A stretch of 64,000 nt of DNA from Hyphomicrobium sp. (lineage in GTDB: Bacteria > Pseudomonadota > Alphaproteobacteria > Rhizobiales > Hyphomicrobiaceae): contig NZ_JAIETU010000003.1 of the NCBI RefSeq assembly GCF_019744875.1, positions 434,001 to 498,000 of the forward strand, in the 5' to 3' direction. The notes under the pieces are model-generated. The model saw only the letters and a program-made list of their open reading frames with translations. It was not told the origin of the DNA and ran no database searches. Both the position numbers and the translations under genes were made by a program. Positions 49,890 through 55,492 of the stretch are shown here, piece after piece. The stretch's first letter is position 1, and every line of letters begins with the position of its first letter.

Positions 49890-50243
49890 TCACTGCCCCG
49901 GCTGAAGCAGATCCGTAACCAGCTTCCGCACGGCTTCGAAATCGAACGGCTTAGAAACCGTCACGTGGTCACGGAAATCATCCGGCACCGCGTGCGAGCC
50001 GTGGCCAGTTGCGAAAGCAAAAGGAATCCCCTGCCCCTGCAGCGCGCGCGCGACAGTGAAGCAATCGTGATCTCCGAGCGTCACATCCAAGATCGCCGCG
50101 TCGATATCGGTCGACGCGACAAGCTCCAGCGCCTGGCTTTCCGAGTGGGCGGGACCGACGGTCTCATGCCCATATTCAGAAAGAAGATCGCCGAGCATCA
50201 TGGCGATGAGCGCCTCGTCATCGACAACAAGAACACGCGCCAT
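49890..50243 (-). CDS. Single-domain response regulator
   Basis: The 117-residue receiver has the acidic pair D8-D9 (VLVVDDEALIAMM), the phosphoacceptor D53 in AAILDVTLGD, and the switch Thr and Lys in FATGHG and VSKPFD. No output domain. Proteins of this kind near PhyR genes often act in phosphorelay with HWE-type kinases as phosphate sinks or inputs to the general stress response; no kinase lies here. Transcribed leftward, 244 bases downstream of phyR. Confidence 0.85.
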   Translation of the reverse strand: MARVLVVDDEALIAMMLGDLLSEYGHETVGPAHSESQALELVASTDIDAAILDVTLGDHDCFTVARALQGQGIPFAFATGHGSHAVPDDFRDHVTVSKPFDFEAVRKLVTDLLQPGQ

Positions 50244-50487: not shown

Positions 50488-51330
50488 CTACGTCCTCGCC
50501 CGCCCTCCGGCAGCCGCATAGCGCCCGCCGCTATCGCTGTCCCCCGTCGCATCCGGGAAATGCGCACTCGTGCCGAAGAACAGCGCCTGGCTGACGAGCG
50601 CCCGCACCGTATTGGGCTCGAACGGCTTCGTGATCAGGAACGTCGGCTCGGGGCGTTCACCCGTCAACAGCCGCTCAGGGAACGCAGTGATGAAGATCAC
50701 CGGCACGGTGAACCCGAGCAGGATCTCGTTGACAGCATCAAGTCCGGAGCTTCCGTCGGCGAGATGGATGTCGGCGAGAACGAGACCCGGCCTCTTCTTG
50801 CGCACTTCCGCCAGCGCCTCGCGATGCGTTCTGGCGACGCCGGACACGCGATGCCCCAGCCCCTTCACCAGCGCCTCGAGGTCCATGGAAATGAGCGGCT
50901 CGTCCTCGATGATCAGCACGTCCGTCGCGGTCTGCTCGGCGATCTGCTCGCCGGCTTCCTCGATCAGCCGCGTAACCTCATCGGCGGAGGTGCCGAGAAT
51001 TTCGGAGATCTGCTGCGTCGTGAAGCCCTCAACGGAGGCGAGCAGAAACGCCTGACGCGGCAGCGGCGTGATGGCCTCGAGGCTCTTGTCGGCCTGGGTC
51101 TTCGGTTCGACAGGCTCGCGATTGAGGCTGACCGAGTTCCATACCTTGAGGAAGCACTTGTAGAGGCCGACGCGCTTCAAGTGCCCTTCCGGGAAGCTCG
51201 CGGGATCGGCGACGAGCGTCTCGAGCACCGCCACCACGTAGGCATCACCGCTTTCCTGGCTGCCGGTGAGCGCGCGGGCAAATCTCCGCAGATACGGAAG
51301 TTGCGGCGCGATGGTCTCAGCAAGCGACAT
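50488..51330 (-). CDS. phyR: PhyR general stress response regulator
   Basis: The 280-residue protein joins an N-terminal EcfG-like sigma domain (SLAETIAPQLPYLRRFARAL, then GFTTQQISEILGTS) to a C-terminal receiver whose phosphoacceptor is D187 in PGLVLADIHLADGSSG and switch Lys in FLITKPFE. On phosphorylation PhyR binds the anti-sigma factor NepR and frees EcfG. ATG at 51330 is set by homology. A GGAAC-N16-CGTT promoter lies 62 bases upstream, so EcfG drives its own activator. A 20-residue Ser/Gly tail is extra. Confidence 0.95.
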   Translation of the reverse strand: MSLAETIAPQLPYLRRFARALTGSQESGDAYVVAVLETLVADPASFPEGHLKRVGLYKCFLKVWNSVSLNREPVEPKTQADKSLEAITPLPRQAFLLASVEGFTTQQISEILGTSADEVTRLIEEAGEQIAEQTATDVLIIEDEPLISMDLEALVKGLGHRVSGVARTHREALAEVRKKRPGLVLADIHLADGSSGLDAVNEILLGFTVPVIFITAFPERLLTGERPEPTFLITKPFEPNTVRALVSQALFFGTSAHFPDATGDSDSGGRYAAAGGRART

Positions 51331-51391: not shown

Positions 51392-51416
51392 AACGCAAAG
51401 CGCCGGCAAAAGTTCC
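51392..51416 (-). promoter_or_regulatory. EcfG-type promoter of phyR
   Basis: On the minus strand GGAAC (51416-51412), 16 bases, CGTT (51395-51392). It exactly matches the EcfG consensus and lies 62 bases upstream of the phyR start. Confidence 0.9.
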
Positions 51417-51454: not shown

Positions 51455-52048
51455 CTAGCGGCCGCGCGCCGTGCCTTTTTCGTGGGCCGGCTCCTCTGCG
51501 GTAGTCGCGCCCTCCGGGTCGGCCTCAACAGCGGAGCGCGCCTGCGCCGCGCCACCCTTCTGATCGTCGTCTCCGAGCAGTTCCACGAGGCGGTTGCGCG
51601 CCCGGTTGACACGGCTCTTGATCGTGCCCACCGCGCATCCGCAGATTTGGGCCGCCTCCTCATAGGAGAAGCCCTCGGCACCGACAAGCACCAGCGCTTC
51701 ACGCTGATCCGGCGGGAGCGTACCCAGCGCGGACCGGAAGTCCGCCATGTCGAGATGGCCGTACTGCTCCGGCTGCACGGCGAGCGAATTCTGATACTGC
51801 TCGTCCGGGTCGTCGACCTCGCGGCGAAGCTTGCGATGCTGCGAGAAGTAGACGTTGCGAAGAATGGTAAAGAGCCAGGCCCGGAAGTTGGTGCCGGGCG
51901 TGAACGAATCCCGGCTGTTCCACGCCTTGACCAGCGTTTCCTGCACGAGGTCGTCGGCGCGCTGCGGATCGTTGGCGAACGATCGCGCGAAGGCGCGCAG
52001 ATGCGAAATGGCGCCGACGAGAGCTTCTTCGAATTCAGGTCCTGCCAT
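51455..52048 (-). CDS. ecfG: EcfG general stress sigma factor
   Basis: The 197-residue ECF sigma factor has region 2 in FARSFANDPQRADDLVQETLV and WLFTILRNVYFSQHRKL, and region 4 in LPPDQREALVLVGAEGFSYEEAA followed by GTIKSRVNRARNRL. The start ATG is one base after the nepR stop. Region 4 and the adjacent context identify the EcfG group. It recognises GGAAC-N16/17-CGTT. A C-terminal Ala/Glu-rich tail of 30 residues is unusual. Confidence 0.95.
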   Translation of the reverse strand: MAGPEFEEALVGAISHLRAFARSFANDPQRADDLVQETLVKAWNSRDSFTPGTNFRAWLFTILRNVYFSQHRKLRREVDDPDEQYQNSLAVQPEQYGHLDMADFRSALGTLPPDQREALVLVGAEGFSYEEAAQICGCAVGTIKSRVNRARNRLVELLGDDDQKGGAAQARSAVEADPEGATTAEEPAHEKGTARGR

Positions 52049-52276
52049 CTAGCTCTTGCCCGTCTTTCCTGAGCCTTCCGACTGCTTGAGCTGGTCGAGA
52101 AGCTGCAGAAATTTATCGGGCACGGTCTCCTTGACCACTTGGTCGTAGCTCTCGCGCAGTTTGCGACCCAAAGCACCCTGAATGGCGGCGTCGACGCCCG
52201 CGGTTTCAGTGCTTTCGTGGTCTTCGGCCGTGGCACTCTGAGCCGGTCCGACCGATTTAGACGTCGTCATTGGCAT
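52049..52276 (-). CDS. nepR: NepR anti-sigma factor
   Basis: The 75-residue protein has the NepR core AIQGALGRKLRESYDQVVKETVPDKFLQLLDQL, the two helices that wrap EcfG or PhyR. MPM gives two possible starts; GAGGGA precedes the first. It holds EcfG inactive until phosphorylated PhyR binds it. It is the first gene of the nepR-ecfG unit, with an EcfG promoter 190 bases upstream. Confidence 0.93.
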   Translation of the reverse strand: MPMTTSKSVGPAQSATAEDHESTETAGVDAAIQGALGRKLRESYDQVVKETVPDKFLQLLDQLKQSEGSGKTGKS

Positions 52277-52468
52277 TCATTCCCTCGGAACCTGTCAGCG
52301 TCACACACCTCCCGAACGCGCCCGGCGGACCCACCGGACGTGTTAGCGCTTTGTATTCGCGGGAATTCCTATACCCACCGACAATCGGCGGACCCGCACG
52401 GGCGCCGTCTTGCCGTATCAAATCCACTCTATTCAGGGTAGTACCCGCCCACCAGCATGATCCGCCAA

Positions 52469-52493
52469 AACGGATATCCGGCCAGAAAGTTCC
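52469..52493 (-). promoter_or_regulatory. EcfG-type promoter of nepR-ecfG
   Basis: On the minus strand GGAAC (52493-52489), 16 bases, CGTT (52472-52469). It lies about 193 bases upstream of nepR and gives autoregulation; the spacer again begins TTT as at phyR. Confidence 0.88.
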
Positions 52494-52506
52494 AGGGGGA
52501 CTGTTG

Positions 52507-52528
52507 GACGAGTGATCGACGAGTGATC
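52507..52528 (+). repeat. Tandem 11-mer repeat
   Basis: GACGAGTGATC occurs twice head to tail between the two divergent EcfG promoters. It may bind a regulator or be a chance duplication. Confidence 0.6.
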
Positions 52529-52583
52529 CGGGTTCGGTTGCATGGGCGAGACGGCTGCGACCATCTTGCCACCCACGGACAAT

Positions 52584-52608
52584 GGAACCGCCCTCAAGGC
52601 CCCACGTT
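52584..52608 (+). promoter_or_regulatory. EcfG-type promoter, rightward
   Basis: GGAAC (52584-52588), 16 bases, CGTT (52605-52608). Expected transcription start near 52615, directly in front of a hairpin at 52617. Confidence 0.85.
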
Positions 52609-52614
52609 AACCCC

Positions 52615-52780
52615 ATGCTCCCAGGCTCGCCGTCAGGCACCTGGAGCCCGAAGCGCAAACCGCTTTGGATTGCGGGCGCCACTCGCACCCCCTCCCCGAC
52701 CCTAGAGCACGAGTGGCGTCTCGCTTCGTGGTGCCGGCAGACAGCTCCCTCCCGATCCTGCTGTCGGCACCACTCCCTCC
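52615..52780 (+). ncRNA. Candidate EcfG-controlled structured small RNA (or leader)
   Basis: From the predicted start four stem-loops follow without a gap: 52617-52647 (8 bp with one bulge), 52651-52665 (5 bp), 52677-52718 (9 bp, CGCCACTCG/CGAGTGGCG, 24-base loop with ACCCCCTCCCC) and 52728-52773 (9 plus 5 bp with a bulge, loop TCCCTCCCGATCCT), then TCCCTCC. The CU-rich loops are complementary to Shine-Dalgarno sequences, as in known alphaproteobacterial regulatory RNAs. Caulobacter GsrN is a known small RNA of this stress response; homology is not claimed. No T-run terminator is seen, so the 3' end is a guess and it could be the leader of the gene at 52942. Confidence 0.55.
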
Positions 52781-52941
52781 GGGCTTTCCCTAAGTTCTAC
52801 AATGTCTTGCGCGCGGGCCAAAACACAAACCGTTGGCTCCGTTGTGCGTGTATGCCGGACGGCCGTAAGCCTCCGGTAATCACATTTTCACGAACTGCCC
52901 GCATACTCCCACTGCTGACAATCCAGAAAAAGCAGTAAAGC

Positions 52942-53850
52942 ATGCATGTCGTGATCGTCGACCCGAGCCGTGTCGTGCAACAGAAGCTGGCCATCGAGCT
53001 TCAGGCAGCCGGCTGCTACGTCGACTGCTTCTCGGCGTCGGATCTTGCGCTCCAGTACATCGAGACGACGCGCAGCGTCGACGTCGTGCTGACGAGCCTC
53101 GAAATCGAACCGATCCCCGGCCTCGAGCTCTGCTGGAACCTCAGAACATTTGTGGGCGCAGCACGCCCCCTCCACATCATCGTCATGTCCTCGAACACGA
53201 GCGAGCGCGCACTCGCCGAGGCGCTCGATTGCGGCGCCGACGACTTCACCGTCAAGCCGGTGCGCCACGAGGAACTGACGGCACGCCTGCGCGCCGCCAA
53301 CCGCATCATCACCATGCAGCGCCAGCTCGTTGAGCAGGCGAGCACCGACTACCTCACCGGCGCTCTCAACCGCCGCGCCTACATGGCAACGGTCGAGCAA
53401 CGGCGCAGCGAACTGGACGAGGGCGACAACCTCGCGCTCGCGCTCCTCGACATCGATCGCTTCAAGAGCATCAACGATCAGCACGGCCACGACGTCGGCG
53501 ACGAAGTCATCTCGGCGGTCGCGCGAATCGCCGGCGAAGAAGCTCCCATCGTCGCGCGTTTCGGCGGCGAAGAGTTCGCACTCGCGTTTCCGGTGCTAGA
53601 TGCTCCGCAGGCTGCACATTGGTGCGATGTCATCCGCCGCGCCATTTCAGAGACCGAATTCATCGGATCGAACGGCCCCTTCCACATCACGTGCAGTTTC
53701 GGCGTCGCCGAATGGCCGGCCGGAGAGACGCTTCGCAACGCGTTGAAGCAGGCTGACAAAGCGCTGATGCTCGCGAAGTCCAGCGGACGCAATCAAGTGA
53801 TCGTTGCCGACTTTGCGACGATTGAACCGGTGCGAATTTCGGCGGCTTGA
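52942..53850 (+). CDS. Receiver-GGDEF protein, probable diguanylate cyclase with pseudo-receiver
   Basis: The 302-residue protein has an N-terminal receiver-like domain (residues 1-120) and a GGDEF domain whose active motif is GGEEF in VARFGGEEFAL, together with DIDRFKSINDQHGHDVGD, so cyclase activity is plausible. In the receiver the phosphoacceptor position reads VVLTSLEIEP where VVLTDLEMP is normal, so the Asp is Ser 52; the other receiver residues (D7 and K in TVKPVRHEE) remain. No RxxD inhibitory site precedes GGEEF. The EcfG promoter 330 bases upstream may link it to the stress response. Confidence 0.85.
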   Translation: MHVVIVDPSRVVQQKLAIELQAAGCYVDCFSASDLALQYIETTRSVDVVLTSLEIEPIPGLELCWNLRTFVGAARPLHIIVMSSNTSERALAEALDCGADDFTVKPVRHEELTARLRAANRIITMQRQLVEQASTDYLTGALNRRAYMATVEQRRSELDEGDNLALALLDIDRFKSINDQHGHDVGDEVISAVARIAGEEAPIVARFGGEEFALAFPVLDAPQAAHWCDVIRRAISETEFIGSNGPFHITCSFGVAEWPAGETLRNALKQADKALMLAKSSGRNQVIVADFATIEPVRISAA

Positions 53851-54001: not shown

Positions 54002-55492
54002 ATGGAAGGACATTCACAAGGCGTCACCTACGAGAAAGTTGACGACGCCTACTTCAAAGCGCGTGGATTACGGCGTCATGCCGGCGTGTGGTCGTTGTGG
54101 GCGCTCGGCGTCGGCGCGGTGATCTCGGGCCACTTTTCGGGCTGGAATCTCGGTCTCGCGCAAGGCGGTTGGGGTGGCATGTTCATCGCCACCATCGTCA
54201 TCGCCACTATGTACCTCGGCCTCACGTTCAGCCTCGCTGAAATGAGCCCGGCCATGCCGCACACCGGCGGCGCCTACTCGTTCGCACGTACCGCCTTCGG
54301 TCCCTGGGGGGGCTTCCTGACCGGCTTGGCGGAAAACGTCGAGTACGTCATCACTCCCGCCGTCATCGTGTTCTTCATCGGCAGCTATGCCGCCGCCATT
54401 CTCGGCGCGCCGGCCGAAACGCAACCGCTGTTTTGGATCGCGTTTTACATAATTTTCGTGACGCTGAATTACGTCGGAGTGGAATTGTCGTTCCGCTTTT
54501 CGTTGATCATCACGATCCTGGCGCTGCTTTGCCTTGCCGTGTTTCACTTGAGCGCGATTGGGCACATCGACTTCAGCCGCTGGGCCCTGAACATCGCGCC
54601 CGATGGCACCGAGCTGCCGGAAGGCAACGGTCCGTTCCTGCCGTTCGGCAGCTACGGCGTTCTTGCCGCCCTGCCGTTTGCGGTCTGGCTGTTCCTTGCC
54701 ATCGAGCAGTTGCCGCTCGCCGCCGAGGAATCCGTCGATCCGAAGCGCGACATGCCGAAGGGCATTCTCGCCGGCATGTTCACGCTGCTGGTCTCGGCGT
54801 TCCTCATCCTGACGCTCAATCCGTCGGTGAACGGCGTCGGCTCGCACAAGCTCGGCGCTTCGGGCGAACCGCTCCTTGACGGCTTCCGCGCTCTCTACGG
54901 CACGGAAATCGCAACCCTGCTCGCCATCGTCGCCCTCACCGGCCTAATCGCGAGCTTCCACACCATCATCTATGCCTACGGCCGCCAGATCTACTCGCTG
55001 TCGCGCGCCGGCTACTTCCCGCGCGCTCTGTCCATCACCCACGGCGAGCGCAAGACCCCACACATCGCATTGTTTGCCGGCGCAATCTTGGGCCTGGCCG
55101 TCATGCTGATCGTGTGGTTCGCGGAAGGCGCCGACAAGGGTGCTCAGCTCATCGGCGGCACGCTGCTCAACATGGCCGTCTTTGGCGCCATGTTCTCCTA
55201 CGTCATGCAAGGCCTGACCTACATCAAGCTGAAGCGCGACTTCCCGACCCTGGAGCGTCCTTACAAGAGCCCGGTGGGCATTGCGGGCGCAGCCGCCACG
55301 GTGATCATCGCCTTGGTGACGATCTACATGCAGTTGCAGGATCCCGTGTACCGCGTCGGCGTCTACTGGGTTGCCGCCTGGTTCGCCATCGGCGTGCTCT
55401 ACTTCGCGCTCATCGGCCGGCACAAGCTGATCCTGTCGCCGGAAGAAGAGTTCGCTCTGACGAAGGGCGAGAAGGCTTACGCGACGCACTGA
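54002..55492 (+). CDS. Ethanolamine permease-like APC transporter
   Basis: The 496-residue protein has twelve helices and the amino acid-polyamine-organocation family signature. Its start KARGLRRHAGVWSLWALGVGAVISGHFSGWNLGLAQGG is that of ethanolamine permeases of the Eat type; later AEMSPAMPHTGGAYSFAR is the first consensus of the family. It imports ethanolamine or a similar amine in symport. GGGGAG precedes the ATG. No ethanolamine ammonia-lyase genes adjoin, so the substrate remains open. Confidence 0.85.
   Translation: MEGHSQGVTYEKVDDAYFKARGLRRHAGVWSLWALGVGAVISGHFSGWNLGLAQGGWGGMFIATIVIATMYLGLTFSLAEMSPAMPHTGGAYSFARTAFGPWGGFLTGLAENVEYVITPAVIVFFIGSYAAAILGAPAETQPLFWIAFYIIFVTLNYVGVELSFRFSLIITILALLCLAVFHLSAIGHIDFSRWALNIAPDGTELPEGNGPFLPFGSYGVLAALPFAVWLFLAIEQLPLAAEESVDPKRDMPKGILAGMFTLLVSAFLILTLNPSVNGVGSHKLGASGEPLLDGFRALYGTEIATLLAIVALTGLIASFHTIIYAYGRQIYSLSRAGYFPRALSITHGERKTPHIALFAGAILGLAVMLIVWFAEGADKGAQLIGGTLLNMAVFGAMFSYVMQGLTYIKLKRDFPTLERPYKSPVGIAGAAATVIIALVTIYMQLQDPVYRVGVYWVAAWFAIGVLYFALIGRHKLILSPEEEFALTKGEKAYATH

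Follow-up and report, generated by a model that had tools for sequence, protein, structure and literature searches.

A candidate EcfG-driven small RNA gene beside nepR-ecfG-phyR in Hyphomicrobium

Introduction

What is encoded in the stretch between nepR, the gene of the anti-sigma factor of the general stress response, and the oppositely oriented receiver-GGDEF gene in Hyphomicrobium? An exact EcfG-type promoter motif points into this region, and a small regulatory RNA, a leader of the downstream gene and a small protein gene have to be considered. The window, i.e., the whole stretch of 64,000 nucleotides that was analyzed, belongs to a genome of 4.52 Mb (G000).

RNAs at this position have been proposed before. 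According to the accessible text of PMC5869019, GsrN of Caulobacter crescentus is a sigma-T-driven RNA of about 100 nt with an exposed C-rich 5′ loop, and Tien, Fiebig, and Crosson (2018) proposed GsrN-like RNAs at the stress locus of several Alphaproteobacteria by their position. Two of these proposals were based on position and promoter alone. The GsrN-like RNAs are typically located beside nepR/ecfG/phyR, C. crescentus itself being the exception (PMC5869019, accessible text).

EcfG-Type Promoters and the General Stress Locus

A previous reading of the DNA, made from the sequence alone, had proposed a stress-regulated RNA or structured leader behind an exact GGAAC-N16-CGTT motif, next to the master regulators of the stress response. 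Both the motif and the placement were confirmed, the former by a motif scan (52584-52608, + strand) and the latter by domain matches for NepR, an EcfG-type sigma factor, PhyR and the receiver-GGDEF protein (Table 1). A stand-alone receiver-domain protein (PF00072) was additionally observed at 49890-50243, just past phyR.

Table 1. Features of the stress locus and of the candidate RNA gene. Positions are those of the window unless a locus is named.
Feature	Position	Strand	Evidence or remark
phyR, anti-anti-sigma response regulator	50488..51330	-	PhyR_sigma2, PhyR_sigma-like, Response_reg
EcfG-type promoter motif 5′ of phyR	51392..51416	-	motif match
ecfG, general stress sigma factor	51455..52048	-	Sigma70_r2 + Sigma70_r4_2; adjoins nepR
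nepR, anti-sigma factor	52049..52276	-	PF18557, 55.3 bits
EcfG-type promoter motif 5′ of nepR-ecfG	52469..52493	-	motif match
EcfG-type promoter GGAAC-N16-CGTT	52584..52608	+	exact match; ahead of candidate RNA stretch
Predicted start of transcription; variable 5′ leader with stem-loops 1 and 2	52615..52671	+	start inferred from promoter spacing
Conserved core, 102 nt	52672..52773	+	near nepR in 8/8 genus genomes
Conserved hairpin A	52672..52724	+	fold and 8-genome alignment
C-rich loop A, GCACCCCCTCCCCGACCCTAGAGCAC	52685..52710	+	CCCTCCCCGACCCTAGAGCAC exact in 8/8 genus genomes
Conserved hairpin B, 15 pairs	52728..52773	+	possible terminator without clear U run
C-rich loop B, CAGCTCCCTCCCGATC	52742..52757	+	CCTCCC in 8/8, TCCCTCCC in 7/8
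Receiver-GGDEF gene	52942..53850	+	PF00072 + PF00990; first gene 3′ of RNA
Amino-acid permease gene after GGDEF gene	54002..55492		AA_permease_2
eutB (ethanolamine ammonia lyase) after RNA	L028:1693-3285; L029:1524-3029; L031:1-492		

With a spacer of 15 to 18 nucleotides, GGAAC-CGTT was found seven times in the window, compared to 2.26 matches expected (shuffle mean). This number was reached by none of 100 shuffles, the largest shuffle count being six. Three of the seven matches head nepR-ecfG, phyR and the candidate RNA stretch, respectively. The remaining four form two overlapping palindromic pairs elsewhere in the window.

For comparison, eight Hyphomicrobium genomes were used (the window's own and seven others). 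The motif GGAAC-N16/17-CGTT is present 5′ of the core described below in all of them, with N16 in six and N17 in two genomes; its surroundings are not conserved, whereas the motif itself is kept.

Divergent EcfG-type promoters 5′ of nepR are also common outside Hyphomicrobium. At 15 such loci inspected by eye, most of these promoters run into a protein start; two of the proteins are CsbD-like and most others PhyR-like. In L032 and L033, two close relatives from outside Hyphomicrobium, the divergent EcfG promoter is followed by a short ORF that resembles, by eye, a CsbD-type stress protein.

Conservation of the RNA Core

A DNA search returned a single match in each of the eight genus genomes, the window's own included. 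In the seven other genomes, the matches correspond to window positions of approximately 52662-52781 with 81-90% identity, and nepR was located within about 1 kb of the core in all eight. The mean pairwise identity of the core was 88%, compared to 25% for the leader between promoter and core, 26% for the 100 nt 3′ of the core and 24% for the 180 nt 5′. The stretch separating the promoter from the core varies in length between 54 and 97 nt.

Since promoter and core were kept while their surroundings diverged, selection has preserved these two parts and little else that is recognizable. The conservation in all eight genomes of the genus lends good support to a small RNA with an EcfG-type promoter.

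Protein-Coding Potential

An ATG-initiated open reading frame of 118 codons is present at 52582-52938 in the window and could represent a small protein gene. In the relatives, this frame is interrupted by a stop codon (L009), lacks a start codon (L005) or shifts its start. A second frame contains a TAG within loop A in all eight species, and in the third frame the core contains stops in three of the eight. No reading frame is thus conserved across the eight species, which is consistent with the earlier statement that the region has no supportable protein gene. A coding gene was rejected on the basis of this frame behavior, and a small protein encoded by the 118-codon ORF is considered extremely improbable.

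Secondary Structure and RNA Strand

The sequence from 52615 to 52800 folds with −86.8 kcal/mol (z −4.97), a value that was reached by none of 200 shuffles. The predicted fold comprises four stem-loops and a small fifth one, the first of which begins at 52617. The four stem-loops that had been described as starting close to the expected transcript start are hence present, and hairpins 3 and 4 (A and B in Table 1) are conserved, whereas stems 1 and 2 are located in the leader of 25% identity and are not. In all eight genomes the folding of the core stands out against dinucleotide shuffles (z −4.89 to −7.45). For the leader, this applies only to the window (z −3.32) and L010 (z −3.09), with z between 1.07 and −1.44 in the other six species. 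As the leader is unconserved and folds clearly in only two of eight species, stem-loops 1 and 2 are not a common feature.

Both loops of the core are C-rich, CCCUCCCCGACCCUAGAGCAC being exact in all eight genomes and UCCCUCCC in seven; in L009, the first C run of loop A is one C shorter. The C-rich motifs ACCCCCTCCC and TCCCTCCC noted in the sequence-only reading were located in the loop of hairpin 3 and that of hairpin 4, respectively. Of the TCCCTCC tail noted there as well, the presence in the window was confirmed; it is not conserved in the relatives.

Standard base pairs account for 97.3% of the 263 pair cells in the eight sequences, compared to 28.5-52.9% in slid versions. Of the 33 pairs, two had changed on both sides; every covariation measure was equaled by 48 of 500 shuffles. 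The pairing is therefore kept, but covariation proper is weak, and the compensatory changes named as a test in the sequence-only reading are few.

In hairpin B, 10 of the 15 pairs are invariant. Stem arms as near-invariant as these exceed the needs of pairing, as might be expected if the partner of the RNA were a protein or a second small RNA (function as a sponge or decoy) instead of the start regions of mRNAs. However, eight species of a single genus are maybe too close for stem drift, and for open C-rich loops there are well-studied precedents of mRNA pairing in the accessible literature (GsrN, NfeR1). A sponge or decoy function is thus regarded as quite unlikely.

Read on the + strand, the core has 18 G-U cells, spread over 10 pairs, compared to three A-C cells at three pairs. 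The one-sided binomial probability of this excess is 0.0007 by cells and 0.046 by pairs, whereby the related species are not independent. The lower folding energy of the minus-strand core in all eight genomes counts against the + strand. Judging from the excess of G-U over A-C, the + strand is likely the RNA strand. No consensus intrinsic terminator was found by the consensus scan of 52400-53000.

The Downstream Gene

The next gene 3′ of the RNA is the receiver-GGDEF gene in five of the eight species (G000, G001, G002, G005, and G007) and eutB in the other three (G003, G004, and G006). In two of the eutB species the GGDEF gene lies about 2.5-2.6 kb further downstream; in the third, the contig ends. 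The replacement of GGDEF by eutB in three relatives indicates a fluid gene content next to the RNA, and the core is as conserved in these three as in the others.

The RNA had alternatively been interpreted as a structured 5′ leader regulating the downstream gene in cis, i.e., the receiver-GGDEF gene in the window. This gene lies on the same strand, its ATG at 52942 being located about 170 nt 3′ of hairpin B, and it is the next gene in the majority of the species (5/8). A cis leader would be located directly 5′ of the same gene throughout, but eutB takes this place in 3/8 species despite the conserved core. Furthermore, the 100 nt past the core are unconserved (26%), and of 51 gene starts in the window, 49 equal or surpass the GGDEF start in their pairing with loop A and 48 in their pairing with loop B. 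The leader interpretation is disfavored by the eutB species and is regarded as very unlikely; in a variant of it, the leader may act on whichever gene comes next. The receiver-GGDEF gene is judged to lie outside the RNA unit.

Distribution Outside the Genus

A covariance model of the Hyphomicrobium core (R1) was used to search 103 genomes of the family and a sample of 397 genomes of the order, both with strict filters. Matches were obtained in eight family genomes (35 candidates scored per genome) and in four genomes of the order sample (nine candidates per genome), all of them Hyphomicrobium. With these filters, no core homologue was found in the 95 other family genomes and the 393 other genomes of the order sample. 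Because few candidates were scored per genome and the filters were strict, distant homologues could be missed.

Among 80 loci around EcfG relatives, five genus members scored 121.7-142.4 bits; the remaining 75 were without a convincing R1 match, the next best reaching 18.9 bits. Likewise, 27 nepR loci of the family, two genus members being left out, gave no convincing match (best 13.4 bits). The loop A motif, searched with up to three mismatches in the 103 genomes, was exact in all eight genus genomes; elsewhere, five inexact places were found, compared to 15 for a reversed-pattern control. Homologues were thus found only in Hyphomicrobium, by searches able to miss distant ones.

Comparison With αr14/NfeR1

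NfeR1 of Sinorhizobium meliloti is described in the accessible text of PMC10746234 as a series of three hairpins, each with the anti-Shine-Dalgarno loop CCUCCUCCC, which silence targets redundantly; ntrB is silenced by occlusion of its start region. Three or four hairpin loops with the same motif CCUCCUCCC are reported for SmelA075 and SmelA099 of S. meliloti in the available part of PMC3927594, in which the word Hyphomicrobium does not occur.

As far as these sources allow a comparison, the Hyphomicrobium RNA resembles αr14/NfeR1 (RF02344) in its series of hairpins with anti-Shine-Dalgarno-type loops and in its core length (123 nt for NfeR1). It differs in the number of conserved hairpins (two instead of three), in the loops (ACCCCCUCCCC and UCCCUCCC instead of CCUCCUCCC), in the promoter and in its stems, which are conserved here and divergent in αr14/NfeR1. 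With SmelA075 and SmelA099 it likewise has anti-Shine-Dalgarno hairpin loops in common, the loop motif CCUCCUCCC being the difference (PMC3927594, available part). Three hairpins each with CCUCCUCCC, as characteristic of αr14/NfeR1, were not found; there are two with other C-rich motifs. From the NfeR1-style hairpin design, the same mode of action would be expected for the Hyphomicrobium RNA.

No Rfam family matched the candidate RNA stretch at its gathering score. With a relaxed threshold, six chance-level matches were obtained, including ar14 with 12 bits (E 8.2), and since its cut-off is 58.8 bits, membership in αr14 was rejected. At E 0.001 and with strict filters, ar14 matched in none of the eight genus genomes. 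The same strict filters yielded αr14 matches below the cut-off (30.7-47.6 bits) in ten genomes of the family outside the genus (L149-L158).

Potential Targets

The two loops were paired with 51 crudely called gene starts of the window and compared to shuffled loops. On average, they pair no better than the shuffles (loop A, −15.0 vs. −16.7; loop B, −11.4 vs. −11.4). The suggested block of translation by pairing with Shine-Dalgarno sequences is plausible, but it receives no backing from these 51 starts.

For loop B, the start of nepR was the best of the 51 (−20.8 kcal/mol); when the start was shifted 6 nt onward and the loop ends were slightly altered, the value was −17.6. A GAGGGA motif is located 5′ of the nepR start codon in all eight species (L003-L010), in five of them inside AGGTTCCGAGGGA. 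The nepR leader around this motif otherwise looks poorly conserved. The UCCCUC of loop B, which is present in seven of the eight species, can pair with GAGGGA. The pairing of loop B with nepR exceeds the shuffle mean in all eight species, albeit modestly, a fraction of 0.026-0.292 of 500 shuffles being as good. For loop A, the result is inconsistent across the species (0.016-0.882 of 500 shuffles as good).

It is conceivable from these pairings that the RNA feeds back on its controllers: loop B would pair with the nepR start, less new NepR would be made and the stress response would be held on. A similar pairing hint could come from any G-rich Shine-Dalgarno site, and little credence is given to such feedback.

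Proposed Function in the General Stress Response

Taken together, the stretch from 52615 to about 52775 on the + strand is probably the gene of an EcfG-driven, trans-acting small regulatory RNA of Hyphomicrobium. The promoter motif, the conserved non-coding core, the conserved pairing, the likely strand and the location are sequence-based; that the RNA is transcribed, that it depends on EcfG, that it acts in trans by base pairing and in which direction is what we infer.

Under stress, EcfG would be released from NepR, as is established for the NepR/EcfG partner switch in the accessible literature. The free sigma factor would recognize the promoter at 52584-52608 and transcribe the RNA, together with nepR-ecfG and phyR, which are preceded by the same motif. 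The working part would consist of the two rigid hairpins, which keep the C-rich loops open. The loops could then pair with target mRNAs at their G-rich start regions and alter the translation or stability of these mRNAs, most likely with repression as the main effect. By analogy with the Caulobacter GsrN, the RNA probably tunes protein synthesis during stress.

The RNA may add another arm to the stress response, a general idea that is already in print (PMC5869019, accessible text). As GsrN-like RNAs at the stress locus were proposed in 2018, the kind is known and the family of the Hyphomicrobium RNA is new as far as searched. A literature search, mostly outside subscription papers, revealed nothing on a Hyphomicrobium sRNA in connection with stress response and sigma factor. 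No title or abstract opening listed for the GsrN and stress literature names the present RNA, and GsrN is not mentioned in the available part of PMC8103513.

If the RNA is transcribed as predicted, the general stress response of Hyphomicrobium would have a post-transcriptional layer. This would support the proposal of a recurrent RNA layer beside nepR-ecfG-phyR without detectable sequence kinship, and the gap in kinship among stress-locus RNAs would then reflect either repeated invention or a very rapid turnover. The RNA is directly testable owing to its conserved loops and a cultured carrier, H. zavarzinii ATCC 27496.

Comparison With GsrN

GsrN and the proposed GsrN-like RNAs, as described in the accessible text of PMC5869019, share with the Hyphomicrobium RNA a promoter of the general-stress sigma factor, typically the nepR/ecfG/phyR neighborhood (not in C. 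crescentus), an exposed C-rich loop and a short length. The predicted Hyphomicrobium RNA is longer (about 160 nt compared to about 100 nt) and has two C-rich hairpins, whereas GsrN has a single 5′ loop and a terminator. Its C-rich loop begins only about 70 nt into the predicted transcript and, unlike in GsrN, there is no clear U-run terminator.

Measured against the features used by Tien et al. (2018), a near-consensus sigma-EcfG site was found upstream in the window and in 8/8 genomes, and nepR/ecfG/phyR are near. C-rich loops are conserved, but behind a variable leader rather than at the 5′ end. Homology in sequence or structure to the GsrN of the Caulobacteraceae was not detected, nor was an intrinsic terminator in the consensus scan of 52400-53000.

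To obtain GsrN sequences, a word deduced from the binding sites in Table 1 of PMC5869019 (accessible part) was searched in 385 genomes of the class, seven of which matched. Among the eight places listed, L160 (genus g220) contains an RNA with an EcfG promoter, the loop CCCCCCCGACUUGA and a U-run terminator. The same genome family yielded six further RNAs of this type, and phyR adjoins all seven. They resulted from a scan of ten loci, of which eight were positive (L160 and L167 denote one place, leaving seven) and two, L173 and L174, were without the motif. The RNA of L160 and its six kin are taken for GsrN, identified by promoter, phyR neighbor and loop, not by the C. crescentus sequence, which was also not included in the model (R2) built from the seven.

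R2 gave no significant match on the Hyphomicrobium RNA and none at all on that of the window. The RNA of the relatives was matched weakly, with 13.8 bits in L008 (E 0.13) and with 10.9 bits in L005 and L030, which represent one place (E 0.69). Conversely, R1 matched all seven GsrN-type RNAs with 9.8-15 bits, none of them significant. These matches were about equally strong on the opposite strand (best 15.0 vs. 14.8), as expected from a long stem alone. Loop A and the GsrN-type loop CCCCCCCGACUUGA have CCCCGAC in common, which also appears in 832 of 20,000 shuffles of loop A (about 4%).

In another reading, the Hyphomicrobium RNA is an actual orthologue of GsrN that has changed too far in sequence to be recognized. 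The EcfG-type promoter, the stress locus, the C-rich loop with CCCCGAC and the weak mutual matches of the two models (9.8-15 and 10.9 or 13.8 bits) are in line with this. On the other hand, no cross-match is significant, R2 misses the window RNA, the R1 matches score about the same on either strand and CCCCGAC arises in the loop A shuffles at the above rate. Furthermore, KatG, to whose family the studied target of GsrN belongs according to the accessible literature, is absent: a profile search for PF00141 found no match in the window's own genome (control matched in 5 of 14 genomes), so that the katG route of GsrN is unavailable there. Orthology is thus unlikely.

A second, true GsrN was searched for with R2 in 40 relatives. 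In 18 of them, 33 places with E up to 1 were listed (best 25.8 bits, E 0.0036), four of them in the window's own genome. Seven of the 33 were inspected, including one of these four. None had an exact EcfG motif on the match strand or the GsrN loop, and most were terminator-like hairpins at gene ends. In the absence of a significant R2 match on the Hyphomicrobium RNA, and of promoter motif or loop at the seven inspected places, both GsrN orthology and a second true GsrN were rejected as identifications.

GsrN and the Hyphomicrobium RNA therefore appear alike in wiring and loop style, with common descent not demonstrable. The best reading is an RNA with GsrN-like wiring and an αr14/NfeR1-like hairpin design, which by its sequence is a member of neither.

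The seven sequences of the GsrN-type RNA (L160, L167-L172, and L175), each with an EcfG promoter and adjoining phyR, have a mean column identity of 91% and could seed a family model.
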